From contig OZ037772.1 in assembly GCA_964035545.1 (NCBI GenBank), positions 2,860,501-2,924,500 of the forward strand: DNA of 64,000 nucleotides, read 5' to 3'. Below the pieces are notes generated by a model, which was not told the origin of the DNA, made no database searches, and worked only from the letters and a program-made list of their open reading frames with translations. Source of the stretch: Bugula neritina. Its lineage: Eukaryota; Bryozoa; Gymnolaemata; Cheilostomatida; Bugulidae. Position numbers and translations under genes: made by a program. Positions 6,768-29,632 of the stretch are shown here, piece by piece. Position 1 is the first letter of the stretch; every line of letters begins with the position of its first letter.

Positions 6768-6790
6768 TTTGGAATGAGAGTGGTAAATGA

Positions 6791-9049
6791 TTACTGTTTA
6801 CTGGCACGTCTACTCTCGACTGCATCAACATAGGAAAAGACCGGACAGCGTGGTTGTGAAACATGGCTAGGGCTTTTCACTTCCAGCGGATGAATCTCGT
6901 GTGAGATTCCGCCGAGGCAAAAGTTGAGATTCTCGTGGTGATCACAACTCCCACGGCTCTTTGCCTGTTTTCCCATGCGAGGCTTCTCTAGACTTTTGTT
7001 ACTGCCGCTTATACCGCGGTCACGTACACAGTCTCTGAGACACGCTGGAAGTTGCCTAGTGTGTGGTCCTGGTCCTATGTTGGTATCTCCTTGCGGAGCC
7101 CCTCCCACGGGGGGTTTTTGCACTTCCGGACCTGTTTCTGGTTCCGGAAGTGGTGATGGTGGCAGGCTTGACGTTGGGGGCGGTGAGCGCACTTTCAAGG
7201 ACGGAAGTGGCCTTTCTCGCCTCGCCAAGTCTTCCTGACGTGTCATGGAGGTGTTTCCGGCCAGGTTGACAGTCTCCGCCTGCCGAGACCTTCTTGCACA
7301 ATGCGTCTGCCGCCCCACTTCACCAGGGAGACGGCTATGCTTGTTGGTCTGGCAGACTTTGCACCGTCTCACTCTGCGTCGGATATCCCGTTCCATGTTA
7401 GGCCAGTACCACCGGAGTTGTAGCTTGGTGACCACCCCTTGGACTCCTCCGTGAGTCTCCTCATGGGTGTCTTGTATCAACTTCCGGCGGATGGCAACTG
7501 GGCAGACAACCCTCTTCCTGGCTGGCTGTCTGCTGTTGGCGGCCAAGGTCATGGTTAGCAGACCATCTGGCCTGACCCGCAGAGAGCTCCAACGTTGACA
7601 GTACAGCCGTAACTCGGCGCATCCCTGTCGCCGTTGTGTACTACTGGGTCGTCGCCCCTCCTGTTTCGCTCGGTACACGTCGGCTACCACCCCAGGAAGG
7701 CATTCCTGGAGCTTCGGCAGCTCCCTAACGTTACCAGCCCATACAGGTTTGGCGCGGAGGCTCTGGGCAGCCTCCGGGGGCGTGTCAGCCCTCTGTTGGA
7801 GTGGCTGAGCAGGGGCGGTCTTCGCCGCCCGTGGTACCTCACGGCAGCCTGCTCTATTTAGGCGGGCTCCGTGGTCTGTGTGGCTGAACGCCTCACTGTA
7901 CCCATGTGGCAACCTAGCCATAGCCTGGCGCTTCCCGTTGCCTGTGCAGCCACGCGTCCCTGGAGGAGGGGAGGCGTGGGTTGGGACGGTCCTCCGCCCT
8001 CGAGACGGGCTCTGCTGAGGACCTTCCGTCGTAGCTCCCGACGACGGCCCAATGGCTTCCTCCTGGACAGGATGGAAGCGACCCAGCATGGATCTGGGTG
8101 GTAGGTCTACTGTCTCTGAGAAGGGGTTGACACACTGCACTGAGATCTCTCCTTGCCTCGTGAGCCGGCTAAAACTACGGGCAAGTTGGACTCTCGAGTG
8201 CGTACTTTCGACAACTCCCAACTTAGAGGTTTGGCCACCGTCTACCTTGCAGCGGACGGTAGCCCGGGAGTGGCCTGGTATAGTACAGCTCCGTACTACC
8301 TGCACTGCTCCCGCTAGAGGACGACCAAACTTATCGACACAAGCGAGCTCCTTGTCGCCCATGATTATCGCAGATTTACTGAAATCGATGCGACAACCGT
8401 GTCGTTGTAAGAATGGCATCCCGAGGATAGCATCCTCGTTGAGCTGCCCGACGATAAACGTCTCTTGGATGGCCTGGTTACGGACGTAACCAGTTAGCTC
8501 AATAATGCCGTAGAAGGGAATGCATGACCCGTCTGCCAGGGTGCCATGATCCCCCTCATACGGTGCCAACCCGTCCTTGACCTTAGCGCTGAGGGTGTCA
8601 AAGAACTGACGGCTAAGGAGGTTGGTGGTGCAGCCGGAGTCCAGGAGGAAGTTGGCAGGCTTGCCGGCTAACTTCCCTGGTAGGAAGTAGCTACTTCCGT
8701 GCGGCTGCAATTGAGTGTGCCGTGGTTGCACCTCCCTCGCTGTGGGTCGAGGGGTCCACGGTTGGCGGCGACTATTGACCAGCTGCCGAGGTTGGGGCGG
8801 TACGCCTTGCGGCGCTTGTACCGTTTCCCTCGCAGGCTCTGTGGTCAACCGTCTGCCGGCTCCGTGTTGGTGCCGGAGTGGCGTAGAGGACCCAGGCGGC
8901 GAGTGGCTTGAGCCTACTTGCCGCGGGGGTCGCCACTTCACAGCATCTCCTCGCGGCGCCCAGCGGGGCGACAGACGCGCGGGCCTTCCTGGGTGATTCA
9001 CAGACGGCCCGCAGGAGGTGGGAACATCTGCGGGCCGGGGTAGTTTAAC
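6791..9049 (-). CDS. Element A residual pol: protease and integrase zinc domain
   Basis: This frame lies in the -1 frame relative to Gag and is open up to 9151, overlapping Gag by about 150 bases, so it is probably made as a Gag-Pol frameshift product. The protease is clear: LLDSGCTTNLL (active-site D-S-G, near 8630) and DAILGMPFL (flap-proximal ILG motif). Then comes a Gly/Pro/Arg-rich stretch, then an integrase N-terminal zinc domain with HEETHGG (near 7455) and CKVC (near 7360). RT, RNase H and the integrase catalytic core are missing. The C-terminal end (EVKSPSHVSQPRCPVFSYVD) is almost the same in element B, so this tail seems to be kept. The start is placed at the putative slippery site because the ATG-less upstream end of the frame is inside Gag. 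Confidence 0.75.
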   Translation of the reverse strand, partial: VKLPRPADVPTSCGPSVNHPGRPARLSPRWAPRGDAVKWRPPRQVGSSHSPPGSSTPLRHQHGAGRRLTTEPARETVQAPQGVPPQPRQLVNSRRQPWTPRPTAREVQPRHTQLQPHGSSYFLPGKLAGKPANFLLDSGCTTNLLSRQFFDTLSAKVKDGLAPYEGDHGTLADGSCIPFYGIIELTGYVRNQAIQETFIVGQLNEDAILGMPFLQRHGCRIDFSKSAIIMGDKELACVDKFGRPLAGAVQVVRSCTIPGHSRATVRCKVDGGQTSKLGVVESTHSRVQLARSFSRLTRQGEISVQCVNPFSETVDLPPRSMLGRFHPVQEEAIGPSSGATTEGPQQSPSRGRRTVPTHASPPPGTRGCTGNGKRQAMARLPHGYSEAFSHTDHGARLNRAGCREVPRAAKTAPAQPLQQRADTPPEAAQSLRAKPVWAGNVRELPKLQECLPGVVADVYRAKQEGRRPSSTQRRQGCAELRLYCQRWSSLRVRPDGLLTMTLAANSRQPARKRVVCPVAIRRKLIQDTHEETHGGVQGVVTKLQLRWYWPNMERDIRRRVRRCKVCQTNKHSRLPGEVGRQTHCARRSRQAETVNLAGNTSMTRQEDLARRERPLPSLKVRSPPPTSSLPPSPLPEPETGPEVQKPPVGGAPQGDTNIGPGPHTRQLPACLRDCVRDRGISGSNKSLEKPRMGKQAKSRGSCDHHENLNFCLGGISHEIHPLEVKSPSHVSQPRCPVFSYVDAVESRRASKQ

Positions 9050-9948
9050 CCTGGTGGGAGCTGAGGGCAGTTTCTCTGGAAATGTCCTGGCCTTCCGCAT
9101 TCCCAGCAGAAGTGGTGCCCCATGCCTGGTGATTGTACCTGCGGCCCGCAAGGCTCACGGGCAGTATCTACCTGGCTTGGGGAGGCTAATGTGGTGACCA
9201 GTTTATCTAGCATGTCAGTCATCTGTGAGATTTTTGACGCTAGTGACATCTGGTTCACATTAGCCACCGCGGAGGGTTCCGCATTTAATTCGGTGTGAGC
9301 AGTAGAGTGCTCCGTGGTCACCTGGCGGGAGGCCACGCGGTTGCGGTGCATATGAGTCGCCAAGAGGTAGGCTTCTCCCACCGCAAGTGCATCTTCGACT
9401 GTGGTGACTCTCCTCGCTTGGAGTTGATGGTGGAGCCCCAAGTCGTTGATGGACTGCACGAAGGCATCATAGGTATACCTCTCACGGTGTACCGGAGGCA
9501 GATCGCGGAATGCGATCTGCGCTAATGGGTACACCGTGGCAGCGTGCTCTTCTAGTGACGTGTGAGGATCACGCCGCATCCTCTGTAGACGGGCCCGCGC
9601 ATCTATGGGAGAGATGCCAAAACGGGCCCGCAGGGAAGCAAAGATTCCGTCTATGTCAGGTCCAGCTCCGTACGGCTTAGCTTTGCCCGTCAGCGCCATC
9701 CTGAGCTTTAGCAACGCCACCCTTGGCGGCCATTCTGCAATCTCCATCACATCCTGGAATTCTTGGATGAACTGCTCCACTGCTTCTTCGCCGGTGAAGT
9801 TGGGCGCCTTCAGCCGGTATCTATCTTCACCATGCTCTCTAAGAATTCTCACTTCTTCATCTAACACCACTGGTTCCACAGGTATATCAACATTATCTCT
9901 CTCACCTTCATTCAGTGGAATGGGTAGCTCCGTGCCGTCTTCTGCCAT
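8998..9948 (-). CDS. Element A Gag (capsid-like domain and CCHC zinc knuckle)
   Basis: Gag starts with ATG at 9948 (MAEDGTELPIPL), shortly after the primer site. The frame is open five codons further upstream but has only TTG there. A retrotransposon Gag capsid-like region follows (FTGEEAVEQFIQEFQDVMEI onwards), then a C-x2-C-x4-H-x4-C knuckle (CWECGRPGHFQRNC) near the C-terminus, typical of nucleocapsid. It is about 316 aa, normal for a compact Ty3/gypsy Gag. In the overlap with pol it has G_TTA_AAC in the Gag frame (9049-9043), a known type of -1 frameshift heptamer, about 45 bases before the stop. It should form particles that package element RNA. Confidence 0.85.
   Translation of the reverse strand: MAEDGTELPIPLNEGERDNVDIPVEPVVLDEEVRILREHGEDRYRLKAPNFTGEEAVEQFIQEFQDVMEIAEWPPRVALLKLRMALTGKAKPYGAGPDIDGIFASLRARFGISPIDARARLQRMRRDPHTSLEEHAATVYPLAQIAFRDLPPVHRERYTYDAFVQSINDLGLHHQLQARRVTTVEDALAVGEAYLLATHMHRNRVASRQVTTEHSTAHTELNAEPSAVANVNQMSLASKISQMTDMLDKLVTTLASPSQVDTAREPCGPQVQSPGMGHHFCWECGRPGHFQRNCPQLPPGLNYPGPQMFPPPAGRL
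9043..9049 (-). promoter_or_regulatory. Putative -1 ribosomal frameshift heptamer GTTAAAC
   Basis: The heptamer lies in the Gag-Pol overlap, phased G_TTA_AAC in the Gag frame, and a -1 slip enters the protease frame directly. GTTAAAC is a documented slippery site in nidovirus-type frameshifting. A downstream stimulatory structure was not verified. Confidence 0.5.
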
Positions 9949-9964
9949 GACTGCTATACGCAAG

Positions 9965-13785: not shown

Positions 13786-13801
13786 CTTGCGTATAGCAGT
13801 C

Positions 13802-14938
13802 ATGGCAGAAGACGGCACGGAGCTACCCATTCCACTGAATGAAGGTGAGAGAGATAACATTGCTATACCTATAGAACCAGAAGTGGCACAGGACCCCCAC
13901 GCCGAACCTGTCTCAACCGATGGCGTCAAGGAGCTAGGACACCTTCAGGAAATTATTCCAGGGGTGGTAGCCGACGTCTATCGAATGAAACGGGAAGGGA
14001 GACGACCCAGTGACAGACAGTGGAAGCTGGGCTGCCCTGAGTGGCAGCTGTACTGCCGAAGTTGGAACGCACTGCAGATCGGGCCGGATGGTCTACTGTC
14101 CATATCCTTGGCCGATAACCACCACCAGCTAGACCAGGAGAGGACCCTCTGTTCTGCCGCCATCCGCCAAGAGTTGATAGAAGAGGTACACCAACAGGCT
14201 CATGGGGGAGCCCAACAGGTGTTCACCGAACTACAACTCTGGTGGTATTGGCCTCACATGGAGCGTGATGTACGACACAGCGTTGGGCAGTGCGGAGTCT
14301 GCCGGGTCAGTAAGCACGGCCCCCCTACTGAGGAGGTAGGGCGGCGAAGGCAAAGTGCAGAAAGACCCGGGCAGACGGAGACTGCTAACCTGGTCGACAA
14401 ACCGCCTAGTATGCAACCCAAAGCAGTGGCGAGGCAGGAAAAGCCACACCCGTTCAGGGAAGTGCGCTCACCGTCGTTAGCGTGCAAGCTGCCACCGCCA
14501 CTCCCTAGGTCAGGAACCGACCTGGAAGTGCAAAAACCCCCCAAGGGAGGGGCTCCGTGCGGAGGTACTGGGAAAGCTCCATTTGTCACAAACTGGCTGA
14601 AGGCACCACCCAAGCGACGTGACCGTCCACGGGTGCGTAAACCGCCTTGGTTAGTGACGACACCTGGGAAACGGTGTTCTAAGCCAGGCCCCGCGTATCG
14701 CAAGGACTTACCACGTTCCGTTAAGGGCGCGGTCAAACGTCCTACGAGACGCCGTGAGGGGAAGGGAGCAGAGCGTGGGAGTTGTGAGCACCACGACAAT
14801 ATTGACTTTTGCCTCGGCGGAATCTCACACGAGATTCGTCCGCTGGAAGTGAAAAGCCCTAGTCACGTTTCACAACCACGCTGTCCGGTCTTTTCCTATG
14901 TTGATGCAGTCGAGAGTAGACGTGCCAGTAAACAGTAA
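13802..14938 (+). CDS. Element B fused ORF: Gag N-terminus joined to integrase zinc-domain region
   Basis: A single 378-codon frame starts with ATG at 13802 (MAEDGTELPIPL, the Gag start of element A). After about 30 residues it jumps to the region just before the integrase zinc domain (ELGHLQEIIPGVVADVY). The zinc ligands are kept: HQQAHGG near 14190 and CGVC near 14290. It ends with the same tail as element A (EVKSPSHVSQPRCPVFSYVD). The deletion removed the rest of Gag, protease and RT but kept the frame. Against element A the integrase segment is much less similar than the tail. A long open frame after a large deletion hints that the product or the RNA is kept by selection, but chance is possible. 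Confidence 0.7.
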   Translation: MAEDGTELPIPLNEGERDNIAIPIEPEVAQDPHAEPVSTDGVKELGHLQEIIPGVVADVYRMKREGRRPSDRQWKLGCPEWQLYCRSWNALQIGPDGLLSISLADNHHQLDQERTLCSAAIRQELIEEVHQQAHGGAQQVFTELQLWWYWPHMERDVRHSVGQCGVCRVSKHGPPTEEVGRRRQSAERPGQTETANLVDKPPSMQPKAVARQEKPHPFREVRSPSLACKLPPPLPRSGTDLEVQKPPKGGAPCGGTGKAPFVTNWLKAPPKRRDRPRVRKPPWLVTTPGKRCSKPGPAYRKDLPRSVKGAVKRPTRRREGKGAERGSCEHHDNIDFCLGGISHEIRPLEVKSPSHVSQPRCPVFSYVDAVESRRASKQ

Positions 14939-14986: not shown

Positions 14987-15252
14987 GTGAGTTAATTATG
15001 TTTTTGGTACGATAACTAGACTGCATCAGTCAGCTTTAGCTACACTAGCTAGCGAGCTGGAGATTCGATAATGATGAACAGTGGTGGGGATACACGTCGA
15101 CTTTGATTTTAAATAATCTGTCATAGCAAGTGTGTTCTCCATCAACTATTCATTAGCCTGAATCTCACGAGTGTAACTGAACAGAGTACCGGTCAGGCTG
15201 TACACGCCGACGGTGCCTCAGTGTATAATCTTTAACACTGCTACTCTTTCAG

Positions 15253-16019
15253 ATCACACTCGAGTGACCACCTCCCGGTCACAGGACCAGCCAACCTCTC
15301 TACCTATGGAAGAAGAGCCTGTAATGGAGAATGGCATACCCGTGGTGCTCCGCCGACGACACCGTTGGGTGTCACCCACGACAGAGAGGAGAATTGAAGA
15401 AGCCTGGGGACCCAGTGGACCACACCGAACCTGCCAGGTCTGCTTTGAAGAGTGCCCGTCACACCGCTCCCTGCGTTTACATGTAGACGCCCATTTCCTG
15501 CTCCACTTCTGTCCCTGCGGGTTCCACGACGTCTACCCGTATCCCGTGACAGTACATAAGCTAAGCTGCTTCGCCGGAGAGAACCACACTGTTGATGAAG
15601 ACAGTTTCCCCCTATACCTGGATGCCATCAAACCAGTCATCAGGAAGGCTATCACCCTGGCCGCGCTAGCGTCAGGGTTTCACGTACTGCTACTATCCGC
15701 CCGCCATAAGTCTCCTATGGTTCAGGGCCCACCTCCTACCCCCGTCAACCCTAGCAACACCCCAGAAGTAGAAGAAACAACAATATCCCCTCTATCGGAG
15801 ACCACTACAACCCCACCAAGGCCTAGCCAGCTGGCTAACGTAGAAGAGTGGCTTGTAAGACTACAAGCCGAGTTCACACAACTTGCCCCTGACCTGCTGG
15901 ATACGACGACAGGTCTATACCAGTTGAAGGACTCAGTAGGGCGACTGAAGAGGCGGCTACGTGCCCGACAGGCTCGACACAGAGCACGGTCGCTACAAGA
16001 ATCAGAATCCAACCAATGA
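15253..16019 (+). CDS. Element B accessory protein, main exon: zinc fingers plus coiled coil
   Basis: Counterpart of the element A ORF at 5715-6481, with the same length and only a few residue changes. The unspliced frame would have to start at GTG 15213, so the spliced ATG at 14962 is the better start. It carries the C-x2-C-x12-H-x3-H finger (CQVC...HVDAH), the second Cys/His motif (CPCGFHDV...), a Thr/Pro-rich middle, a leucine-heptad stretch and an Arg-rich C-terminus. The neighbours are the pol remnant upstream and the 3' LTR downstream. Function is unknown; nucleic-acid binding or regulation is inferred from the fingers and basic tail. Confidence 0.75.
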
Positions 16020-16669: not shown

Positions 16670-17899
16670 GTATTACTAATACTATTAGTATTACTTACAA
16701 CTGTCTTATGCAAGAGAATTAAATCTTTAAAGCGTAGCATCCTTTTCAAGCAAAATAAGGATAATAAGTTTCGTCAAATTGAGTTAAAAACTACAACTTA
16801 TAAGTCACAAGTATAAAGCAACTTATGCTCAGTCATCACTAATCCTAGTGGGTACGGCAAGCATATAGCATAATTTATTTCACAATGCGACAAGATTATC
16901 TAGACGGTGCGATTACGCCTCTCATTGTACTTAAGCAATATCCAATTGTACGGTTCTCATGACTTTAAAATCCGTTTTTGAGAAGCAAGGCTAGATAGAA
17001 GTTAATGATCAATATTGACTCGCTAAGAGTACTCATGTAAACCCGCAAACTACAACTTTTAACTTGACCGCAAAGCTGGAAGTACGATAAGCGTCGCCGT
17101 ATTGATTTCAGGCGAATTTTAGTTGATTTCTTTCAAACTGCTGAGAAGTAATATTTGCTTCCATTTTATGTCTGTATCAGCCATCAGGGCTATCGCGATA
17201 CACTTATAAATGTTCTTAATTCAATCAATATTATGAAATAATTAATGTAGGAAATTCAATTTTGACTATATAGAATAATCTCAATATGAATAAGTATTTT
17301 TTATTTATTGTAACACTTGCACTTCGTCTTACTCTTACTCTTAGTCAGATAACATAGTACATACTCATACTGATAGTTGAAGACCATGCGTTAAAATTAA
17401 CTGTTTCTCTCTTTTCTAAGTTACATTTCAAGTTGCACACTAATAGACACATATGCTTTCAATTTTTTTGATCTATCTTCAAGTTGTGAAACTTGACCAG
17501 TATGACTACGACTAACTGTAACTAGAATAAAATATTGGATGATAGAGAAGTTCCATACCGTTACACCTCCGTTGACTTGTGCTACCGTCGGTAAAACTAA
17601 AAGAGTGGAGCCAAAGAAAAGCATAATCACAGAATTCACAACTTGCTGGTTTGAGATTTTTGTGGTCTAGAGATTGTACTGGGTTACAGGGATCTTTTTC
17701 CCCGTCTGTGAATTTTTGATCCCTGCGGTTGTTTCTGACTGTGGGTAGTTGGAGGTGTTGAGGGAGTGGGCTCACTGGGTAGGCTATATTATTGTAATCA
17801 TATTAACCAATTTGACAGTTTACTAATTCATTGTCTAACTCTGTCTGTCTTAGTCTAGTAACACTATTTATTTATTTATTTACTTATTAATTTAATTAA
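16670..17899. other. Intergenic DNA, no gene recognised
   Basis: No known family seen. A minus-strand frame near 17512-17775 is open for 87 codons but shows no domain and is probably chance. TTTA-type simple repeats occur at 17866-17893 before the satellite. Confidence 0.5.
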
Positions 17900-18031
17900 A
17901 TTACTAGTTTATATTACCAAGTTATATTACTAGTTTATATTACCAAGTTATACTACCAGTTTATATTACCAAGTTATATTACTAGTTTATATTACCAAGT
18001 TATATTACTAGTTTATGTTACCAAGTTATAT
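17900..18031 (+). repeat. 26-bp AT-rich satellite, block 1
   Basis: Tandem 26-bp units made of two related 13-mers, TTACTAGTTTATA and TTACCAAGTTATA, so the unit looks like a dimer of an older 13-bp repeat. The block is cut by the solo LTR at 18032 and continues at 18362. Confidence 0.9.
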
Positions 18032-18361
18032 TGTAGTGAGTAGTGCAAAGTACAAATACGGGAATCGCCCTCTCTCTACTCTTGGAATACTTAGACCCTT
18101 ATGTAGCAACCAATTAGCAGCTCCGGAAGATATGCTTCCGATTCACGTGACACTTCCCGGGTTATTAACAATTTATCACGTTGTTGTAAGCGGAGGCTTG
18201 AAGGAGAAACATGTATTAGTAGTTGACTGATGTATAGGATAATTTGATGTGATGTTTGTTTTATGCTTTATTGTGGATAATAATTATAATTACTAGCAGA
18301 ATAACCAACTAACTATACGCAAGTAGATAACTCACGCACAGTAATCGCACGAATTACTACA
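18032..18361 (+). mobile_element. Solo LTR of the element A/B family
   Basis: 330 bp, begins TGTAGTGAGT and ends GAATTACTACA, matching the 352-bp LTRs with small deletions and more substitutions. It is flanked by ATAT on both sides (18028-18031 and 18362-18365), so it inserted as a full element and lost its interior by LTR-LTR recombination. It sits inside the 26-bp satellite. Confidence 0.9.
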
Positions 18362-18500
18362 ATATTACTAGTTTATATTACCAAGTTATACTACCAAGTT
18401 ATATTACTAGTTTATATTACCAAGTTATATTACTAGTTTATATTACCAAGTTATATTACTAATTTATGTTACCAAGTTATATTACTAGTTTATGTTACTG
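18362..18500 (+). repeat. 26-bp AT-rich satellite, block 2
   Basis: Continuation of the block at 17900-18031 after the solo LTR, with the same alternating 13-mers. Confidence 0.9.
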
Positions 18501-18668
18501 AAGTAAATTTGTGTCTGACACCAGGTGTCACTATTGACGGTAAGTAATCTCACTTAACAATGAGGGTCGGAATAGAATTCCCTTGTGCGGAAAACTAATT
18601 AAACTATCTAATACTGTTTGTTGCCAAATTATTTGCTAATGTGATTTTAATATTTTCCAGTGACTATT

Positions 18669-18995
18669 GATTTCTGGTGTTTGGTAACAGTGCTGAAGTG
18701 TGATAGGGACACGGCTATGGTTCGCCGATTTATATCACAGCAACTGTAGTCAGAGACAGTGACAGAAAATCTGATTCCTGATGTTCGAATCGCAGAGACT
18801 CGACAGGAATTCCGCAACGCAAGAGAGTCACTACAGTGGAAAAATGATTTCTGGTGTTCGGTAACAGTGCTGGAGCGTGACAGGGACACGGCTATGGTTC
18901 GCCGATTTATATCACAGCAGCTGTAGTCAGAGACAGTGACAGAAATCAGATTCCTGGGATTTGAATCACCGAGATTCAACAGGAATTGCAGCGCA
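18669..18995. repeat. Tandem duplication, 177-bp unit
   Basis: GATTTCTGGTGTTTGG at 18669 and GATTTCTGGTGTTCGG at 18846 start two copies of about 177 bp that share GCTATGGTTCGCCGATTTAT and CAGAGACAGTGACAGAAA. No protein is assigned. The second copy ends near 18995. Confidence 0.85.
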
Positions 18996-19316
18996 AGTAA
19001 TCACCATTGACAAACCTATAGAAACTAACTACCACTGTTGCCAACTCAATAGCAACCTAATCAAAGAGCAGAGTATTTCGCAAAGAATAAAATTTATTAT
19101 ATTTATAAGAGTCAATTATAAACATTACAACAGGCAACAGTCGACTGACTGCTACTAAAAATTACAACTCTATTTATATCCATATTACGGACGTCTTGGA
19201 GCACAAAACGGACGTCTTGGGGTACAACCAATTATTTACATACAAAAATTTTATAAAACTCAACAAATTTAATATAAAATTAGCATTACAACTTGTATCA
19301 ACCAATCACAATATAT

Positions 19317-19679
19317 TGTTGTAGATTCGCACAAATATACCATGTCCTTGTTTTATTTTAGAGTTATATTCCCTCGCGCACGTTTCTTTTTTTTGTTATT
19401 ATTATTATATGTAAGCCGAGACTCGTGCGAAGTCGGAGCCCGAAGACGCGATATCGGAGGGGCCTGCCCGAGATCGGGCAGGTCTTCCTCCGATGTCGGT
19501 CGGCGGAACTCCGACGTTCGCACGAGTTTCGGTCCCTCATTAAGTGGCGGGAATTTCCCCCTATATAAGTACGAAGTTTTTCCAAAGCAATTCATTCTTA
19601 TACTGGAGCTCGGAACAGTCAGAAGAAATAAATACTCATATATTCATTTGAATCAAGACTCTTTATTTCTATAACAACA
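19317..19679 (+). other. GC-richer island with nested palindromes; possible old LTR
   Basis: The outer arms CTCGTGCGAA (19422-19431) and TTCGCACGAG (19517-19526) enclose ATCGGAGG/CCTCCGAT (19453-19460, 19487-19494), which enclose CCTGCCCG/CGGGCAGG (19463-19470, 19475-19482). Downstream is a TATA-like CCTATATAAG and AATAAA-like sequence. The stretch from TGTTG (19317) to CAACA (19679) has LTR-like ends, but no target duplication was found, so the LTR reading is tentative. Confidence 0.4.
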
Positions 19680-19918
19680 ACTGGCATGCAGACTACTAGT
19701 CTATTCTGATAATCCACAAAATCACAACAATATCAAAATTAGTTGACCTAGCTTTGAGTTAGTTAAATTATATTGCCAGAATGATTTAACTTGCAAGTCC
19801 GATAAAAATCACCTTGACCTAGTCTCTATATTCACAATATTGTTATTCAGGGCCGTCAACTTGACGCAACGTGTACTGCTCGATGGCTCTAGTAATATGT
19901 TTTACTACATTACCAAAT

Positions 19919-20183
19919 CAAATTACTAGTTTATATTACCAAGTTATATTACTAGTTTATGTTACCAAGTTATATTACTAGTTTATATTACCAAGTTATA
20001 TTACTAGTTTATGTTACCAAGTTATATTACCAGTTTATATCACCAAGCTATATTACTAGTTTATATTACCGTGTTATATTACTAGTTTATATTACCAAGT
20101 TATATTACTAGTTCATGTTACCAAGTTAAATTACTAGTTTATATTACCAAGTTATATTACCAGTTTATATTACCAAGTTATAT
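19919..20183 (+). repeat. 26-bp AT-rich satellite, block 3
   Basis: About ten units of the same 26-bp satellite as at 17900-18500. The block ends at the ATAT duplication (20180-20183) of LTR element C and resumes on the other side of that element at 27904. Confidence 0.9.
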
Positions 20184-20870
20184 TGCTATAGATGTATTCA
20201 AGTATTATTTCATACTTGACATTTTGTATGCTATACCACTACAATATAATATACTACAGATATAGCATCCTGCTTCCCTGCAACCTTAGTTAGGGCTTAA
20301 TATTGTTTTGTATTGAATACTTCCATGTATTCTATCTTTTCCCCATTTATAATATCTCTTTTCTTCCATACATAGTGTATGCCTAATATATAGAATAACA
20401 GTAACATTAAATAGACACACACTTACAAGGTTATACACCATGATACAGGACATACAACTAGTTATTGGAGATGGTACAACATTAGCCCTAAAATTATACT
20501 TCCACATATATGATGTTTCGCAACAGGACTTCTAGCCTAAGGATTATAGCACTTCGCTCTTTAGCTATAAGGTACTTATCACTTTCGTACCCTTACCTTT
20601 TATGTTGAGTGACGGAGCTCTGGCTACAAGAAGTAAGCAATGAGAGAACCTTCTGTCTAAACGTGGCAGCTTTGGTACAGGATTCCAGATCTCTTGTACA
20701 CTAGAGTCCGTCGTAAGCAGATGTGACTGAAGAGAAGAATAATACCGGTAAGTGTGATACCAACTATCAACGCGTTATAGTTATACACATGTAGAATATT
20801 CTAATTGTATGCATACCCTGTGTTATATTAGGTACTTAGTAGTTGAAAACCCCCAGTACTCAATATAACA
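20184..20870 (+). repeat. 5' LTR of element C
   Basis: 687 bp, TGCTATAGAT...CAATATAACA. Contains no clear protein frame. Confidence 0.9.
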
Positions 20871-20873
20871 TTT

Positions 20874-20888
20874 TGGAGGAGGCACTGG
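20874..20888 (+). other. Possible primer-binding site of element C
   Basis: TGGAGGAGGCACTGG starts three bases after the LTR. It begins with the TGG complementary to CCA and is close to, but not identical with, the complement of tRNA-Cys 3' ends as known generally. Tentative. Confidence 0.4.
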
Positions 20889-21989
20889 CTTTTGCCCAAG
20901 GTTGCCCTTGTTAAATATTGTGTCCAGCTTTGAATTAATAGCTCTTGACACTTGGTTAACCACCCCGTGCGCCAGGGGATAAAATTATATTAATACTTTA
21001 GATAGTGTTGATCAGGCCTCATTTGGCTGTTCACTAATATTTTCCTGTAGGTTTTCTATTCGCTGAGCTTATATTTTGCTCGTGGGTAGACCGTAGAAGT
21101 GCTAGGCCGCACTGAGAAAATATTAATTGAAGCCAAAAAGGATCAACTTTTACATATTACCCCAAAACAATATACATCCATAGACTAATAGTAATAGAGC
21201 GAGAATTCCTATATGTTTAATTTTTCTCTGCTGCTTAAAAGGTGAAAACAAGCCAGTTTTAATTTTTTTAGCCTAGAGATAATTAATTGTAGAAGTGAAT
21301 TACCTCCCTTTGCTAATAGGCTAATTTAGTTGTATAATTGGGTGAGCTGCAGATAAGGTTAACACGCTCCTTATTTAGCAGTTAATAAATTCCAAACAGA
21401 TTCAGTCTACGACTGTCTGTTGAGGTATAGGCGCTGACAAGTACTATAATTAATAGTCTTGTCCTAAACATAATTTCTTATAATTATCTACAATTTACTT
21501 TGCAGTGCATTGCCAATCAGAGCATCACTGAATTGTATATTATATATTTACACAGTATATGAATATTACATTGCAGTACTAAGTATTGCAACACCTGCAG
21601 TGCAGTCAGAGTATTATAGTACAAAGCATTGTCCTATTACGTATTATAGTACCTAAGTACAACAACCGCCTTACTACATAGTACGAATATCAAACTAATT
21701 AATTACTGTGGTTGACTAAATTTAGAGTTTAGACTAGGCTTGAATAGCAGAAATAACTGAATAATTTGTAGTGTACAGAGGTCATAATAAAAGACTTCCA
21801 CTAACTTAAAGTATTTAACTGCAAGCCACACCTTGTCATATATACAGGATAGTACATGCACACATATCGTTGAGTAAGAAATAGACACATAATTGTACAT
21901 TAGCACAAAGTATAAACATTAATAACATTGCAAACAAGTACTGCTGAACTCACTTATTAATTGAGAATTATAAGTCACGCACCAACAAT
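20889..21989 (+). other. Leader region of element C
   Basis: About 1.1 kb without a recognised ORF on the sense strand. It probably acts as 5' untranslated and packaging sequence. A minus-strand open frame at 21703-21906 is not supported by anything else. Confidence 0.5.
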
Positions 21990-24900
21990 ATGAGTACCGG
22001 AATCGTGACCACCGCCACAACTACAGTCACCACTAGTGTTAGTACTATTGCGACACCAGGTAGTGCCACAAATGTAGCCACGGGCTTAGACACTCCTACT
22101 CTCTCACAAGACTCGACAAGAGAAGGAGCTCACGCATTGGTTGAGTTGTCCGCAAGACGACTCCCAATGAACCCGCATGAAATTGCAAGGTTCTACGAGT
22201 TAGAATACAAGAAACTTGTAGAGGAGCAGGAAAAGCAAAAGGATGTATGGAGATATGAGCAAGAACAATGGCGACAGTATCAACAAACGAAAGAGCATGA
22301 ACTGGCGGAACAGTTTCAGCGCCTCGAGGTAGAAAGACAAGAGCAAGCAAGAAGACGGTACGAGATGGAGGAACGTTTTGAAATCCAACGGAGAAAGTTC
22401 TATGAGGAACAGAGCGCTGTTCAAGAACAACAGCAAAATGAGTTCCTGGAAAAAGAGCATCGGCTCACAATCCAGCAACAAAAGTTACAACAACAACTTG
22501 AAGATTTTCGGAATTTCACCTTGGGTCAAAGATCTACCAATGATGCAAATGTCATGCCGGAACCAACTCCGCCACCTCGAACTCGCCTACCTCCACCAGT
22601 TACGCCACGAAAAACAAGTAGAAGACAACTTCATGAACAACCAGCACCTACAAATACTACCTTGGAATTCACATCAAGTTATCCCCACATTGCTAATCAA
22701 CGATCACCAAAACCTCATAACTCACCAATTCAAAGCTTAGCTGAAACACCATCTGAACCCAGCATTGGAGTAGCTGATGCGGGAAAATTTCACAACTCAC
22801 CTATTATTCTGAGAGAGCCTCCACAGAACATCAAATTTAAAGGAACTCCTGGTTCCAGCTGGGAGTTATTTCTTGAAAAATGGGAAAAGAACATAAAAAA
22901 ACTGCAGCTTAGTGATTATCAGATGGCACAAAACCTTCCATATGCCCTGGAAGGTGGTGCCTATCAGGTTTTCAAGGCAGTAGTTGCAAAGGAGCCCACG
23001 CTAGCGATTAGTTACAAAAGTCTTCGAGAGAGGTTATGCAAAGAGTTTGTCGACTCAAGCAAATTAGTGTGGAACATAAAGATGAGGAAGAAAAGCGTAT
23101 TAGAATATTATGGCGAATTTATGGAAGCTGCCAACACCCAATGGCCTGACCTCTCCCTTGAACATAAAGATAGCGAACTAGTATCTGCTTTTATTACTGG
23201 TCTACGACCAGGATTGAAGAGGCACATCCTCTCTAAAAACCCCACAACTGTAGAAAGTGCTAGGAAACTTGCACTTAAGCAAGAAAATGTAGAACATCAG
23301 ATGGGAGATGACACCCAGAGAATAGTGGCAACGGTAAACTCATCGGACTCAGTTCAAAAGCTAGAAAAAGAGGTAGAATGGTTGAAAACTTTAGTGCACA
23401 ACCAAGCTAAAGAGCAACGGCAGCCCCAATACCAACAGCACCAACAACAGAGTCAAGGGTTTGGAATGAGAAATGACAGAGGTAGAGGTGGTGGATGGAG
23501 AGGAACAACAAACCGAGGAAGAGGACGAGGTAGATACTTCAACCAGGGGAAGCCTCAACCCTACTACCAATCTTCTCCCCGGTACCCTCATCCACCAGCA
23601 CAACTTCCTTCCTGCCCACCTCAACCACCCTCTCACCAGCAACCACAACGTAATCAGTGCTCTGGTCAACAGAGAAAAACCAAAGATTACAGTGGGACGC
23701 GACACATCAATGCTATTGAGAGCCTGGAAGGTGATGAATTTGCCGAGGCCCTTCTGACTCAGCCTCCTCAAGATGAGATAGCTGAGGAATCAGTGAATTC
23801 AATTCAAACCTCCCCAAATGAATTCATCTCTGACAGAAAACCCAAAAGAAAAAGAAGCAGAGGACGGGGGACTGGTTTGTCAACAATGCAAACCTACATG
23901 TTGGCACTAGTGGCAATGTGTATGCTAATCAGTGTAGCCGCAGCCACTGCACCAGTAAAAGGCACAGCTCTCCTGGGGCCAGCTTTGGCCAGTCAGACTC
24001 TCACCAGCATACTATCTGTGTTAGTGTTGACAGCAGTAGTGAATGCATTGTCTAACACGACTGTTTTTAACACTACACAGAAGGCACAGCCGCAGTATGC
24101 CAGGTATCCTTTGGTGTGTAGTTCCAGTGAAGTGAGGCGACCATCTATTCATCAATTGAATCATGACTTCCAATGTGATCCGACTCCAAGACCCAATAGT
24201 ACTCATGCGCCAACCCCTGTGAAGGCTACGGTTTACAGAAAAAATGTAGTGGAATGGCGTACAGCAGCCTATCAATGCACTAAAATGCTGTACACCATCT
24301 CCACACAGATATCACTTTTTACGGACGTGAAAACTAAGAAGGAATCTCACCGGTCACTGCCAGTTAGCCGCAGCGAATGCGAAAATATGGTACTAGAGAA
24401 GAGATGCAATGAAGGTGCCCTATCTGGAAGTGATGGTGCATACACTACAAAAAACAAAGCTGTAGGATTAGCTTATGTTTGGTGCTGCAAGTGGCATCAC
24501 TTTGAAGTGAAACAATGCAGTTATATTTCAGCTTCGGTATACAAGACATTTGGGAAAAGTTCTTTTGAAAGCACCGCAGGTGACGTTTCCCATTGCAACT
24601 CATACTCTGATGGCTACTGCAAACTCAGAGATCAATCTATGCTAATATGGGAAACAGAACGAGAAGCTAATTGTCCATACGAGGAGTGGTATGAAGTTGA
24701 AGGAAGTTTCCTTGATGGCTATTTTGTTAGTGATCAAGGAGACTTGGCTTTAACTTTCCGCAAGAACCCCTTTGAGAATATTACCACTTGTGACGGCAAG
24801 TCAGGCACAATGTCGGACCAAGGTTTGCTTGTTGTTTTTAATACTTCAGACCTGTTCAACACCACTCTAACGCAACACGTTGAAAAAGCTCCTGGACTAG

Positions 24901-25997
24901 AATGGGACCGCAGGAGTCGTTTGAGTCCAGCATATGCTGTCATGGACGCTATAGCTCAGTCCCTAGAAGTACAGATCCTCGGAATCGAATCAAAACTGTA
25001 TTGGACATCTTATCAATATACCTGTAAAAACATAGTTCAAGTCCTCAAAACCGTAGCTCTCCTCGCAGAGCAACATGCGACGAGTACAGCCAGATACTTA
25101 CTAGGGGTAAGCAATATCCGAGCTGAGTCTGGTCCTGGTTTTCTAAAGATTTACCCATGTACGGAAATAAAAAGCTACAAAATGCTCCCTATGCCAGAGA
25201 ATAATTGCACCATGTTTATTCCAGTGGAATTGGAACTCAGTGGGGAAACGCACACTGGTTTCATGGATCCAATGGATAACATTATTCACACACAAAGTGC
25301 ACAAGCACCGTGCACATCCAAATCAGCAATTGCATTCCGGATGAACGATGAATTGTTTTGGTATAACCAAGATGGTACCGTAGAAAAGGTTAATCTTGGA
25401 GAAGAGCTGAGTTTACCTGGAATTTCTCTAGGTGCACACCCTCTTAAAATCCATGAAACAATCTACAGCCGTGCCCATCACTTAAGTTGGCCTGACCTGT
25501 CAGCACACTCTGACTTGAATGAATTGCTAGCTACTTTGTCAAGACAGAAACAAGTTTTAGAAGCAATGGGAATTCAATCCAACAGACATGTTTCCTTTAA
25601 AAACAATGTCATTGAGTCGAAAGAAAACTTGATAGGGAACTCTTGGTTTGCTTTCCTGTTTGGAGGGCATGTGGCGAGTGCATTCGAATTGTGGACTTTG
25701 ATATCCAACTGTTTAGTCACCATATTGTCAATTGCATTGCTAGGTATTTTCCTATATAATCGTTGTTGCCAGCGAAGGAGAAATATTGTAGCAGCTATCG
25801 ACATTGAGGACACAGAGAACACATCTGACAATGATGTTGAGGCAGGAGAACAGGATGGGTTCCTGGACGCTTCCGATCAGACTAGCTTCACAGAATTCGT
25901 AGATATGGTAGAGGTGGACACTAGACCAACCCCTAGTGCTCCTTCGCCTGCATCCTCAATTCAGCAATATCGCCCCCTCTATCCGAAACTGCAATGA
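21990..25997 (+). CDS. Element C Gag-Env polyprotein (1335 aa)
   Basis: One uninterrupted frame holds two proteins that are normally separate. Residues 1-60 are Thr/Ser-rich, about 60-180 are a Gln/Glu-rich coiled coil, and 190-215 are Pro-rich. Residues 279-440 resemble a retrotransposon Gag domain (KFKGTPGSSWELFLEKWEKN onwards). Residues 490-525 are an RG-rich nucleic-acid binding stretch in place of CCHC knuckles. After a basic KPKRKRSRGRG motif a signal-peptide-like segment starts at Met633. It leads into a Cys-rich ectodomain with several N-x-S/T sites, a membrane anchor at about 1232-1256 and an acidic tail. The ectodomain has Cys pairs around WCCKWHHFEVKQC and a GYCKLRDQSMLIW motif. 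This is reminiscent of invertebrate virus fusion glycoproteins, but the family was not established. The alternative is expression of Env by splicing. Confidence 0.8.
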   Translation: MSTGIVTTATTTVTTSVSTIATPGSATNVATGLDTPTLSQDSTREGAHALVELSARRLPMNPHEIARFYELEYKKLVEEQEKQKDVWRYEQEQWRQYQQTKEHELAEQFQRLEVERQEQARRRYEMEERFEIQRRKFYEEQSAVQEQQQNEFLEKEHRLTIQQQKLQQQLEDFRNFTLGQRSTNDANVMPEPTPPPRTRLPPPVTPRKTSRRQLHEQPAPTNTTLEFTSSYPHIANQRSPKPHNSPIQSLAETPSEPSIGVADAGKFHNSPIILREPPQNIKFKGTPGSSWELFLEKWEKNIKKLQLSDYQMAQNLPYALEGGAYQVFKAVVAKEPTLAISYKSLRERLCKEFVDSSKLVWNIKMRKKSVLEYYGEFMEAANTQWPDLSLEHKDSELVSAFITGLRPGLKRHILSKNPTTVESARKLALKQENVEHQMGDDTQRIVATVNSSDSVQKLEKEVEWLKTLVHNQAKEQRQPQYQQHQQQSQGFGMRNDRGRGGGWRGTTNRGRGRGRYFNQGKPQPYYQSSPRYPHPPAQLPSCPPQPPSHQQPQRNQCSGQQRKTKDYSGTRHINAIESLEGDEFAEALLTQPPQDEIAEESVNSIQTSPNEFISDRKPKRKRSRGRGTGLSTMQTYMLALVAMCMLISVAAATAPVKGTALLGPALASQTLTSILSVLVLTAVVNALSNTTVFNTTQKAQPQYARYPLVCSSSEVRRPSIHQLNHDFQCDPTPRPNSTHAPTPVKATVYRKNVVEWRTAAYQCTKMLYTISTQISLFTDVKTKKESHRSLPVSRSECENMVLEKRCNEGALSGSDGAYTTKNKAVGLAYVWCCKWHHFEVKQCSYISASVYKTFGKSSFESTAGDVSHCNSYSDGYCKLRDQSMLIWETEREANCPYEEWYEVEGSFLDGYFVSDQGDLALTFRKNPFENITTCDGKSGTMSDQGLLVVFNTSDLFNTTLTQHVEKAPGLEWDRRSRLSPAYAVMDAIAQSLEVQILGIESKLYWTSYQYTCKNIVQVLKTVALLAEQHATSTARYLLGVSNIRAESGPGFLKIYPCTEIKSYKMLPMPENNCTMFIPVELELSGETHTGFMDPMDNIIHTQSAQAPCTSKSAIAFRMNDELFWYNQDGTVEKVNLGEELSLPGISLGAHPLKIHETIYSRAHHLSWPDLSAHSDLNELLATLSRQKQVLEAMGIQSNRHVSFKNNVIESKENLIGNSWFAFLFGGHVASAFELWTLISNCLVTILSIALLGIFLYNRCCQRRRNIVAAIDIEDTENTSDNDVEAGEQDGFLDASDQTSFTEFVDMVEVDTRPTPSAPSPASSIQQYRPLYPKLQ

Positions 25998-26001
25998 CTA
26001 G
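25995..26001 (+). promoter_or_regulatory. Stop codon in a readthrough-type context (CAA TGA CTA G)
   Basis: The only stop between the 1335-codon ORF and the protease frame is TGA at 25995-25997, preceded by CAA and followed by CTAG. UGA CUA is a known leaky-stop context in RNA viruses and some animal genes. The downstream frame is in the same phase and open for 169 codons. Confidence 0.6.
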
Positions 26002-26507
26002 AAGCCGACACACCCAGTACTAGTAGCCGCATTGAAATAGTAGCAGGAATAAATGGTAGTCAATGTAGGAGTGCGTTAATTGATGTCAAAATAGCAGGAA
26101 AACCGTATCAAGCATTAGCTGATGCCGGGGCTACGGTGACATTGATGCGCTCTGACATTGCTAAAAGATTGAGTCTACCATTATATTCAGGTACCTTGAC
26201 TGCAAAAGGGGTTAACAGCTCTAAACTTCATATAATAGGACGCACGGCCGCTGAGATTACAATTGGATCGAAAGTGTTTAAGCAGTGTTTTCATGTAGCT
26301 GATGATATTGGCCATGAGGTACTGCTTGGAACTGATTTTCTTAGCAAACTGGGTGATGTCACCTACAATTTTGCAAAAGGAGAGTTTCGTTTCTCTGGCG
26401 AAACTTTACCCATGGGAGAAACCAACGCACTAACTACTTTTAAAATAAGAACTGTGAATGCAGTACACATACCACCATATTCTCACCCGATTCATTACTC
26501 TACATAA
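25998..26507 (+). CDS. Element C retropepsin-like aspartic protease
   Basis: This frame follows the TGA without a shift and ends with TAA at 26505-26507 (169 codons). It has the retropepsin marks: ALADAGATVTLM with D-A-G in place of the more common D-S/T-G (Asp near 26121), and HEVLLGTDFL, the hydrophobic-x-G-x-D-F-L motif close to the domain end. The first ATG (26136) lies after the catalytic Asp, so a separate start there would give a dead enzyme. Expression by readthrough from the upstream ORF is the simplest explanation. In known elements such a protease cuts the Gag precursor. Here the upstream product would be Gag-Env-Pro. No RT follows. Confidence 0.75.
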   Translation, partial: LEADTPSTSSRIEIVAGINGSQCRSALIDVKIAGKPYQALADAGATVTLMRSDIAKRLSLPLYSGTLTAKGVNSSKLHIIGRTAAEITIGSKVFKQCFHVADDIGHEVLLGTDFLSKLGDVTYNFAKGEFRFSGETLPMGETNALTTFKIRTVNAVHIPPYSHPIHYST

Positions 26508-27216
26508 CCATGCAGATATACCAGATATACTAATATTTACTACCATATTAATAATCAAGTTTTTCAACGGAACACAGGAGTTTTCCTGTTGTTCACAGGG
26601 GGAGTACTTTAACATTTTTTTCAGCATTACAGGTTAACATCTCCTACAGTTTTGGCTTCTTATAAAACAAACTTACTAAAAATTGCAGAAATCAAATTGA
26701 CTTTTGATTAAAATAAAATTAAGTAAGCTCTGTATTGGGAAAATTGAATCAAATCAAGCGGAATTTTTAAATATTCAAAGTTGGATAAAATGCGGAGTCG
26801 ATTGTTATCACCACCTCCTGTGACTTATGTTTATAATATTCATAATTAGTGTATTTTTAGTAAATGTTTACTTATGGCTAAAGTCTTGTTTTTTTATTTT
26901 ATCAACAGATATAGTTCATCAAAAAAAAAATAATAATGAAAATATGGTTACAAAAAAAAAGGAACAATGTAAGAAATGAGTGAAAAAAAAATATGTGACC
27001 AGAACAAAAAAAAATACTCACTCTAATCGATGAACTCACTAGTACTAATAGAATACATATATACAACAGCTAGTATACATAATTTTCAAATTTTACTCAT
27101 TCTATTGTGAAAGGTTTTTCTTCCTTTTTTTTTTATTTCAGAGTAGTAATGCTTAATTGTTTATGCTTTCAACAAGCATAAGCCACCGGAGGTGTCTTTC
27201 TCTAAATTGGGGAGGA
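26508..27216 (+). other. AT-rich 3' region of element C, with polypurine tract
   Basis: No RT, RNase H or integrase frame exists here. It holds poly(A)/poly(T)-rich DNA and, directly before the 3' LTR, GGGGAGGA (27209-27216), a likely polypurine tract. Confidence 0.7.
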
Positions 27217-27903
27217 TGCTATAGATGTATTCAAGTATTATTTCATACTTGACATTTTGTATGCTATACCACTACAATATAATATACTACAGATATAGCA
27301 TCCTGCTTCCCTGCAACCTTAGTTAGGGCTTAATATTGTTTTGTATTGAATACTTCCATGTATTCTATCTTTTCCCCATTTATAATATCTCTTTTCTTCC
27401 ATACATAGTGTATGCCTACTATATAGAATAGCAGTAACATTAAATAGACACACACTTACAAGGTTATACACCATGATACAGGACATACAACTAATTATTG
27501 GAGATGGTACAACATTAGCCCTAAAAGTATACTTCCACATATATGATGTTTCGCAACAGGACTTCTAGCCTAAGGATTATAGCACTTCGCTCTTTAGCTA
27601 TAAGATACTTATCACTTTCGTACCCTTACCTTTTATGTTGAGTGACGGAGCTCTGGCTACAAGAAGTAAGCAATGAGAGAACCTTCTGTCTAAACGTGGC
27701 AGCTTTGGTACAGGATTCCAGATCTCTTGTACATTAGAGTCCGTCGTAAGCAGATGTGACTGAAGAGAAGAATAATACCGGTAAGTGTGATACCAACTAT
27801 CAACGCGTTATAGTTATACACATGTAGAATATTCTAATTGTATGCATACCCTGTGTTATATTAGGTGCTTAGTAGTTGAAAACCCCCAGTACTCAATATA
27901 ACA
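27217..27903 (+). repeat. 3' LTR of element C
   Basis: 687 bp, near-identical to 20184-20870. ATAT follows at 27904-27907. Confidence 0.9.
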
Positions 27904-28078
27904 ATATTACCAGTTTATGTTACCAAGTTATCTGACTAGTTTATATTACCAAGTTATATTGTCAGTTTATATTACCAAGTTATCTTACTAGTTTATATTA
28001 CCAAGTTATATTACTAGTTTATGCTACCAAGTTATATTACTAGTTTATATCACCAAGTTATCTTACTAGTTTATACTG
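27904..28078 (+). repeat. 26-bp AT-rich satellite, block 4
   Basis: Same satellite as blocks 1-3. It joins block 3 (19919-20183) once element C is removed. Confidence 0.9.
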
Positions 28079-28774
28079 CTAGTATTCAACAACTATTCTC
28101 CATCACATCTCAACTCTGACGCAACTACACTGACTAATCATCCGTATAGTTTATAGTTTATGTTGAACTCTTCAGACCCTGAGAACTGTGCGTGTGGCTT
28201 CACCTGCGAGTGTGGTGCCTGTGTTGGGGTATGTGACCTTGACAGAGACTGTGGGAAGCTGCAGATCTGTTTGGAGAAAAGATGTTATCAGCAGGCCTCA
28301 CCAGATGACAGAACAGTTGTCTGGGATCTTTATCACTCTGAACTAGTAGAATGTTCTTCAGGTATGACCTTTGCTCCATTGGAGTTTAAAAGTGTTGCTT
28401 TCTGTTGTACTTATATCTGTGCTGGCCAGGATTTTTGAATGATTTTTGTAATGTATTTACGTAACAGAGTGTAAAATTAAAGCTGAATTTGCTTTATTTT
28501 CTATATATTTTGTTTGTGATTATCAGCATTTTTATTTGTAGAGATAAAATTTATCAAAAGAGTTTCATACACTTGTATTTACTTAGACTCGGACTGTGTT
28601 GGTGTGTGTGTGGGGGGACTTTGCTCAGACACCTGCAAGTACGAGCTGTCATGCACACTTGGCAGGACGTGTCAAGGTGGCAAGTGCTTCTATCCGTGTA
28701 CTGACAACACAGCCTGTCCTAGTGATGGACAGATCTGTCACCATGGTGACTGTAAAGAGGGCTGTCAGGTGAGT

Positions 28775-29015
28775 AGTCACTATGACTTATACTGCGAGTA
28801 TCGATGATTTTCATACTATGAGTTATGACTACCTACTATAATTTATACTGTGAGACCAAGTAGCTGCTGTAACTTATGCTGTAAATCATGACTAACTAAT
28901 ATCACTACTACTGTGAGTCATGACTAACTAATATCACTAATACTGTGAGTCATGACTAACTGATATCACTTATACTGTGAGACCAAGTAGCTGCTGTAAC
29001 TTATACTGTGAGTCA
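28775..29015. repeat. Intronic imperfect repeat, about 30-bp unit
   Basis: Repeats of ACTGTGAGTCATGACTAACT and AATATCACT-type words after the 28768 donor. No coding value. Confidence 0.7.
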
Positions 29016-29089
29016 ATTATCAAAAATAGCAAAGAAGTAGAGATATACTGTGTATTAAATTTAGTAAAGTTACCTAATTATGACTGGAT

Positions 29090-29200
29090 GCTCTTCCTTG
29101 CATCACCAAAGGTTTTTACTGGGGCTTAAACCCATTACTTTAAGTTTACTAAGCAAACACTCTAACCCCTAGATCACTGCTGCACTTGCTAATGATCACA
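29090..29200 (-). repeat. tRNA-like SINE head (degenerate)
   Basis: On the minus strand GATCTAGGGGTTAGAGTG resembles a tRNA A box and GGGTTTAAGCCCCAG a B box at tRNA-like spacing. No good cloverleaf was drawn, so a tRNA-derived SINE fragment is more likely than a tRNA gene. Confidence 0.35.
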
Positions 29201-29324
29201 CTTTATGTATGATTGGTACCCAAATAGGACAGAGCAAAGATAACTAAAGCGAAGATAGAATATATTTTGACACTGCTGAAAAGAATTAAGCATAGAGCGT
29301 GTTATCTCATAAAGCCTTAATATA

Positions 29325-29632
29325 ATTAAGTATAGTTACTCTGTTAGTATAGTTACTCTGCTAGTATAGTTACTCTGTTAGTATAGTTACTCTGTTAGTA
29401 TAGTTACTCTGTTAGTATAGTTACTCTGTTAGTACAGTTACTCTGTTAGTACAGTTACTCTGTTAGTATAGTTACTCTGTTAGTATAGTTACTCTGTTAG
29501 TATAGTTACTCTGTTAGTATAGTTACTCTGTTAGTATAGTTACTCTGTTAGTATAGTTACTCTGTTAGTATAGTTACTCTGTTAGTATAGTTGCTCTGTT
29601 AGTATAGTTGCTCTGTTAGTATAGTTACAGTA
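29325..29632 (+). repeat. 17-bp tandem repeat
   Basis: About 18 copies of GTTAGTATAGTTACTCT with few changes. Confidence 0.95.

Follow-up and report, generated by a model that had tools for sequence, protein, structure and literature searches.

Retroviruses and Metaviridae package their enzymes through Gag-Pol. The International Committee on Taxonomy of Viruses places Env of the Metaviridae downstream of the integrase (PMC7879559); according to the accessible part of PMC10309623, env of the Retroviridae comes after pol, and a follow-up on the Anakin elements reports, in its accessible part, no clear glycoprotein capture by Gypsy elements (PMC10084718). We analysed a 64,000-nucleotide stretch of the Bugula neritina genome (hereafter the window), which carries a long terminal repeat (LTR) element at 20184-27903. 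Very probably this element has lost pol by deletion and is a non-autonomous member of a Ty3-type LTR lineage with the gene order gag-env-pro-pol, in which a Monjiviricetes-type Env stands in frame between Gag and the protease (Pro). The order was found in two families of this genome, which have CAA-UGA-CUA in common, and the family of the window element has a decayed, pol-bearing parent.

The element has the paired LTRs (TG...CA ends), 4-bp target site duplication (TSD), primer-binding site (PBS) and polypurine tract of an LTR retroelement. After a leader of ~1.1 kb, an open frame of 1335 amino acids (21990-25994) ends at a TGA, followed in phase by a retropepsin frame of 169 amino acids. The first half of the long frame matched Retrotrans_gag in Pfam (E 1e-5, 26.1 bits against a cut-off of 24.1), and the frame after the UGA matched gag-asp_proteas (E 1.6e-13). 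The order Gag-Env-stop-Protease that a first-pass annotation had read from the letters and the open reading frames (ORFs) is borne out. Its claim that a polymerase is missing also stood, as tblastn with the reverse transcriptase (RT) and integrase (IN) of the pol-bearing C7 element described below detected neither in the window element; being without RT and IN, yet present in several insertions, it is a non-autonomous LTR element by definition. The signal-like segment placed at Met633 does exist as a hydrophobic segment, but Met633 is only the start of that segment inside one continuous frame. The features of the element, in window coordinates, are as follows.

20180-20183, + strand: target site duplication ATAT, 5' side (flank comparison)
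20184-20870, + strand: 5' LTR, 687 bp, 7 mismatches to the 3' LTR
20874-20885, + strand: PBS TGGAGGAGGCAC, identical behind the 5' LTR in all six copies compared
21990-23885, + strand: Gag part of the Gag-Env frame (PF03732 match), with a basic RG-rich tail and no CCHC knuckle
22941-23210, + strand: capsid domain inside the Gag part (Pfam)
23886-23960, + strand: internal hydrophobic segment, signal-peptide-like (hydrophobicity and Env alignment)
23886-25994, + strand: Env part, predicted Monjiviricetes-type fusion glycoprotein in frame with Gag (via relatives, no direct Pfam match)
25689-25757, + strand: C-terminal transmembrane segment of Env (sequence prediction)
25977-25991, + strand: LYPKL in the Env tail, an (L/V/I)YPxL motif in the tail comparison
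25992-26001, + strand: CAA TGA CTA G, stop in a readthrough context, CAATGACTA being kept among copies
25998-26507, + strand: retropepsin (Pro), 169 amino acids, in phase with Gag-Env (Pfam and genome comparison)
26051-26173, + strand: RNA stem, lowest z among 127 windows of the element, which folds in other copies
26466-26486, + strand: approximate pol-deletion scar, Pro side joined to the parent 3' untranslated region (UTR) (comparison with the old C1 copy)
27207-27216, + strand: polypurine tract TTGGGGAGGA (sequence inspection)
27217-27903, + strand: 3' LTR, 7 mismatches to the 5' LTR over 687
27904-27907, + strand: target site duplication ATAT, 3' side (flank comparison)

Pol-bearing relatives occur in the same genome in two families. 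The C7 element (C7:4541394-4553711; 12.3 kb, no LTR difference in the 640 bp aligned, TSD TAGC) consists of a Gag-Env frame of 1220 amino acids, a TGA and an in-phase frame of 1288 amino acids, both intact, the latter with protease, RVT_1, RNase H, H2C2 and rve domains (Pro-RT-RNase H-IN). The closest solved structure to its RT is that of Ty3 (PDB, 2.1e-69). It shares TG..ACA LTR ends and a 4-bp TSD with the window family, its PBS (TGGTGGAGGTACC) is similar to theirs, and the similarity of the two Pro sequences runs up to approximately residue 163. A copy of it on C5 is 95-99% identical by segment, with stops that break the frames; a C4 copy retains Env in pieces, TGA-CTA and 107 amino acids of Pro; a C3 copy comprises Gag and part of Env; and a fragment at C7:5404665 has the end of Env near Pro and RT, the Env-Pro border being deleted. 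The second relative (C1:17299577-17312716, the old C1 copy) is an old decayed copy of the window's own family. Its Env pieces are 82-93% identical and its Pro is 96% identical in DNA over 386 bp; it has CAATGACTAG, followed by RT (60-65% to that of C7), RNase H and IN, and then the window 3' UTR (92%) and an LTR remnant. Both a DDE transposon-like ORF and an RT of non-LTR type interrupt it.

Because the old C1 copy keeps Pol between Pro and the 3' UTR, we regard the window family as a pol deletion of a gag-env-pro-pol element. In this comparison, ~13 codons at the 3' end of Pro in the window align with the 3' UTR of the parent; since window 26384-26466 has no match at the corresponding place, the scar is only approximate. 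Ty3-like RT-RNase H-IN is present in C7 and, by Pfam and tblastn, in the old C1 copy, whereas the window copy is without RT. Env lies immediately upstream of Pro in the window, C7, C5, C4 and old C1 copies, with Pol after Pro in C7, C5 and old C1; in none of the five does Env lie downstream of an integrase, and neither the window family nor C7 has env after pol. The first-pass annotation had argued correctly that a single deletion cannot turn gag-pro-pol-env into gag-env-pro, but the canonical parent behind that argument has to be given up: the intact C7 and the decayed old C1 elements run Gag-Env-(UGA)-Pro-Pol, and one pol deletion suffices because the parent order was already Gag-Env-Pro-Pol. 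The pol-less state is a derived, non-autonomous form, and the unusual trait is the envelope-first order common to the pol-bearing relatives. In an RT search of the genome, 94 of 1602 candidates were scored and the pol of the old C1 copy was missing from the matches, which leaves room for further pol-bearing copies.

The order is also kept among the pol-less copies. The genome (215.8 Mb, 295 contigs) contains 42 wnt-family matches, counted per exon, which mark the host as an animal. In it, the LTR search suggested by the first-pass annotation gave 45 matches, counting solo and partial LTRs; Env gave 25 (25/25 candidates scored) and Pro 14 (51/51 candidates scored). Near-identical copies were located at C8:1746523, C2:1605004, C9:3565354, C8:2512534 (a tandem) and C1:4745748. 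The TSDs were ATAT for the window, ATGT for C2, ACAG for C9 and ACAT for both the C8 tandem and C1:4745748, these last two having different flanks. C8:1746523 has the same TSD as the window and 1500 bp of common flank on each side (100% and 99.9%), and is therefore a duplicate of the window insertion. This left five independent insertions, all bounded by a 4-bp TSD and by flanks of their own; Gag-Env-UGA is common to all five and Pro is present in four. The LTRs differ at 7 of 687 positions in the window, 6 in its duplicate, 0 in C2, 6 in C9, 1 in C1:4745748 and 0 in the C8 tandem, and Gag-Env is open in the window, the duplicate, the C8 tandem and C1:4745748. Where Pro is present, no more than ~0.7 kb separates it from the 3' LTR, too short a distance for pol. 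The similar LTRs of the window, its open frame and the order kept in further insertions agree with the earlier view that the element is not simple debris.

The duplicated segment (window ~18684-29403 and C8:1745023-1755739) extends at least 1.5 kb into both flanks; its two copies lie 1.13 Mb apart on the same contig and represent either a segmental duplication or an assembly artefact. The array at C8:2512534-2527328 is a tandem LTR-internal-LTR-internal-LTR with three identical LTRs. The window element itself is inserted into a 13/26-bp minisatellite (window 19909-20188 and 27907-28075), and like arrays occur at 17896-18032 and 18362-18504.

Three homologue searches of protein databases, each scoring the 8000 best candidates, yielded nine homologues (P0001-P0009) that bear on the identity of Env. 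Four of them exceeded the Monjiviricetes_fusion (PF24664) cut-off of 27 bits (P0001, 33.1; P0004, 43.1; P0006, 28.6; P0007, 27.5 bits) and are 38-52% identical to the window protein. P0002 scored 20.4 bits, under the cut-off; there was no match in P0003, P0005 or P0008, and none in P0009 at E 0.01, though its stored annotation lists PF24664. The window Env has a signal-like segment, a C-terminal transmembrane segment and eight NxS/T sites, and the alignment of its relatives contains conserved cysteine residues. Judged via these relatives, the C-terminal half of the window frame is a putative envelope of the Monjiviricetes (mononegavirus/chuvirus-type) fusion glycoproteins, in line with the glycoprotein the first-pass annotation had proposed. 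In IMG/VR, a scan with the Env protein found no relatives, and of 11 stretches that fitted a pattern in a scan with the Env alignment none was confirmed. Among solved structures, none matched the Env protein at E 1, and a single match to the Env profile (E 0.19) was discarded.

Five of the nine homologues (P0002, P0006-P0009) are single-frame Gag-Env proteins of 1173-1374 amino acids, with Retrotrans_gag above the cut-off in P0007 and P0008 and under it in P0002, P0006 and P0009. The other four (407-740 amino acids) are Env only, although P0001 starts within the last part of Gag. P0005 is almost the same as the C7 Env. For seven elements, the Gag and Env identity matrices were correlated (Mantel r 0.857, a value reached in 13 of 5040 permutations, the observed order included), and both trees contained the groups {window, P0006, P0009}, {P0002, P0007} and {C7, P0008}. 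Thus the association of Gag with Env is older than the split between the window and C7 lineages. Over the seven elements the Gag-Env join is open and in frame, with Env identity down to 37%, and its Gag side carries a conserved DEFAxxxLxQPP. The Gag proteins of the window and C7 are only 22% identical. A CCHC-type knuckle pattern is absent from the window-family Gag (22990-23690) and present in C7 and the five Gag-Env homologues; its absence might perhaps reflect changed RNA packaging in the pol-less family.

The Env-Pro border is conserved as well. CAATGACTA (CAA-TGA-CTA) stands between Env and Pro in all 11 copies with the border preserved (window, C8:1746523, C2, C9, both units of the C8 tandem, C1:4745748, C7, C5, C4 and old C1), and a UGA followed by CUA or CGG is the signature of type II programmed readthrough. 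Readthrough is known at UGA-CUA(G), in many cases accompanied by a stem 6-12 nt after it, according to the accessible parts of two accounts (PMC4132726, PMC11166343). C7 has a strong stem here that pairs as far as the stop in a 123-nt fold (z -5.46, or -4.2 with another 40 shuffles). The C7 window starting 12 nt upstream of the stop was the second lowest of 147, and in a longer fold the main stem begins 6 nt after the UGA. Of its 41 pairs, two are broken in C5 and two in C4, and one double change in C4 preserves its pair. The last Env residue is Gln in nine of ten tails that are otherwise highly variable (Arg in P0003; P0004 has no tail, and the Gln of P0005 is not at the C7 position). All ten tails contain (L/V/I)YPxL, which we take to fit an ALIX-type late motif or a YxxPhi sorting signal; the decayed old C1 tail has LYLKL in its place.

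We also compared silent and replacement changes among pol-less copies. For Env and Pro, four copies were used (window, C2, C9 and C8 tandem), excluding the duplicate C8:1746523 and the second tandem unit. The 3' half of Env had 33 variable sites, with 23 silent and 10 replacement changes against 10.1 and 21.8 expected (0 of 2000 shuffles as high). Pro had 10 silent and 8 replacement changes (5.0 and 12.9 expected, p 0.0135), and Gag, window versus C1:4745748, had 17 and 16 (9.7 and 22.2 expected, p 0.005). These results point to purifying selection on Gag, Env and Pro and suggest that the pol-less copies still use their own proteins.

For expression, envelopment and the use of a helper we infer the following from sequence. 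Unspliced RNA would be translated into Gag-Env, and the internal signal peptide would thread Env through the membrane of the endoplasmic reticulum and leave Gag in the cytosol, for which the capsid/glycoprotein border of the flavivirus polyprotein offers an analogy. Occasional readthrough of the UGA would add Pro, or Pro-Pol in the autonomous relatives, to the cytosolic Env tail, so that the enzymes would enter the particle joined to Env and not to Gag; YPxL in the tail may recruit the endosomal sorting complexes required for transport for budding. Pol-less copies would package their own RNA in their own Gag-Env particles and rely on a pol-bearing relative for RT and integrase. We put forward tentatively, as a scheme that could well be correct, an enveloped Ty3-type lineage with Gag-Env polyprotein particles, Pro and polymerase as a UGA-readthrough extension of the Env tail, and pol-less satellites that keep selected Gag, Env and protease and borrow the polymerase.

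Several observations weigh against parts of this picture. Env is split over two frames in C2, the open frame of C9 is 1044 amino acids and its Pro has a TAA near the end. C1:4745748 keeps UGA-CUA but has lost most of Pro, with LTRs that differ at 1 of 687 positions; should Pro have been lost before this copy inserted, it may not be required in cis, and this copy shows that own Pro is not needed now by every copy. The window has no stem in the 120 nt that follow the UGA (z +0.98); the lowest z of 127 windows (-5.45) begins 56 nt after the stop, and its strong stem lies ~60 nt downstream, beyond the usual 6-12 nt. Of the database proteins the final residue is known, but neither their stop codon nor the sequence beyond it, and YPxL can also be read as a YxxPhi sorting signal. 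Few sites lie behind the selection tests, and part of their signal could date from autonomous ancestors. Finally, neither the window Env half nor the C7 Env had a significant match in Pfam.

The broken frames and the lost Pro are what would be expected of a mere passenger, whose Gag, Env, Pro and Pol all come from a helper in trans and whose own frames are hitch-hiking remnants of an autonomous parent. A C7-type Pol with intact frames exists, and the LTR ends, TSD length and similar PBS would suit it. This is nevertheless doubtful, given the silent-change excess in Env, Gag and Pro and the open Gag-Env of three independent insertions (window, C8 tandem and C1:4745748). With Gags of only 22% identity, the C7 Gag is also an unlikely packager. 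Still less probable is a spliced Env mRNA as in errantiviruses, with an incidental Gag-Env frame and Pro made by frameshift or reinitiation. Spliced Env is known for insect gypsy-type elements (accessible part of PMC12992720), and the leader could hold a splice donor, but the join stays in frame over seven diverged elements, its Gag side is conserved, and Pro is in phase behind CAA-UGA-CUA in two families. The lack of a Pfam match for the window and C7 proteins alone would fit a host or Gag-specific membrane protein in place of a viral glycoprotein, a very improbable reading in view of the four homologues and an L052 protein (see below) that exceed the Monjiviricetes_fusion cut-off, and of the signal segment, transmembrane segment, conserved cysteine residues and NxS/T sites. 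A one-off rearrangement of a canonical gag-pro-pol-env element, which the Metaviridae rule of Env after integrase (PMC7879559) would favour and which the first-pass annotation had allowed for should canonical copies turn up, is refuted by the five independent insertions, the five Gag-Env fusions among the homologues and the pol-bearing relatives, which keep Env before Pro.

Other elements were noted. A different Env-bearing element spans L053 4850-5500 and L052 1-3617 (C4:12454349-12458616), with a CCHC-like knuckle (by eye), a dUTPase (1.3e-27), Env above the PF24664 cut-off (3.9e-8) and, after Env, an rve-type integrase at 30.8 bits, slightly under the cut-off; Env again precedes the integrase, and no relative of the C7 RT was found between them. 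Within the window, at 5715-9963 on the - strand, a CCHC Gag-like ORF overlaps an ORF with an aspartic protease and an H2C2 integrase zinc domain, with no RT between by Pfam; at 13787-14938 on the + strand an ORF has an H2C2 integrase zinc domain, and the adjoining ORF (15213-16019) has no matches.

The first-pass annotation had suggested that a pol-less element making an enveloped particle with its own protease would be a new kind of retroelement parasite. That it is pol-less and has its own protease stands; the pol-less state is itself ordinary and derived, and what is new is the lineage, with Env between Gag and Pro plus a UGA-CUA readthrough context. A literature search found no description of a gag-env-pro-pol order, which is weak evidence of absence as most subscription papers and preprints lay outside its coverage. 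With env inside the gag-pro-pol unit, the lineage demonstrates that gene order is not fixed. The lineage would be a further case of a retrotransposon gaining a glycoprotein of negative-strand RNA virus type, its order predicts that enzymes are carried on the envelope tail, and the pol-less family is a possible natural satellite-helper system. Two candidates for comparison were set aside on the accessible parts of their sources: Troyka has no Env, 3-bp TSDs and CG ends (PMC12440569), and in Caenorhabditis elegans CERV stands at the end of the Cer1 polyprotein, its status as Env being unsupported (PMC10309623).

The comparisons with readthrough genes, TelKA2n and Anakin likewise follow the accessible parts of the papers cited. 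The type II readthrough of alphaviruses and OPRL1-type genes has UGA-CUA(G) in common with our elements, and C7 also has a strong stem directly downstream (PMC11166343, PMC4132726); here, however, an envelope tail is joined to protease-polymerase in a retroelement, and the window stem lies farther downstream. TelKA2n of bdelloid rotifers is similarly non-autonomous, with an env-like ORF and most of pol missing (PMC5408684), but in the TelKA clade env follows pol as ORF3 and is of paramyxovirus F type, and the end of gag is missing. The Anakin elements likewise combine an LTR element with a chuvirus-type (Monjiviricetes) glycoprotein (PMC7642597), but these are BEL/Pao and not Ty3-type, with the canonical Pao structure plus a glycoprotein instead of a single-frame Gag-Env. 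The Metaviridae/Ty3-gypsy elements, including Errantivirus, are alike in LTRs, PBS, polypurine tract, 4-bp TSD and, as seen in C7 and the old C1 copy, a Ty3-like order of RT, RNase H and H2C2/rve in Pol; the difference is that in our elements Env continues the Gag frame and comes before Pro.

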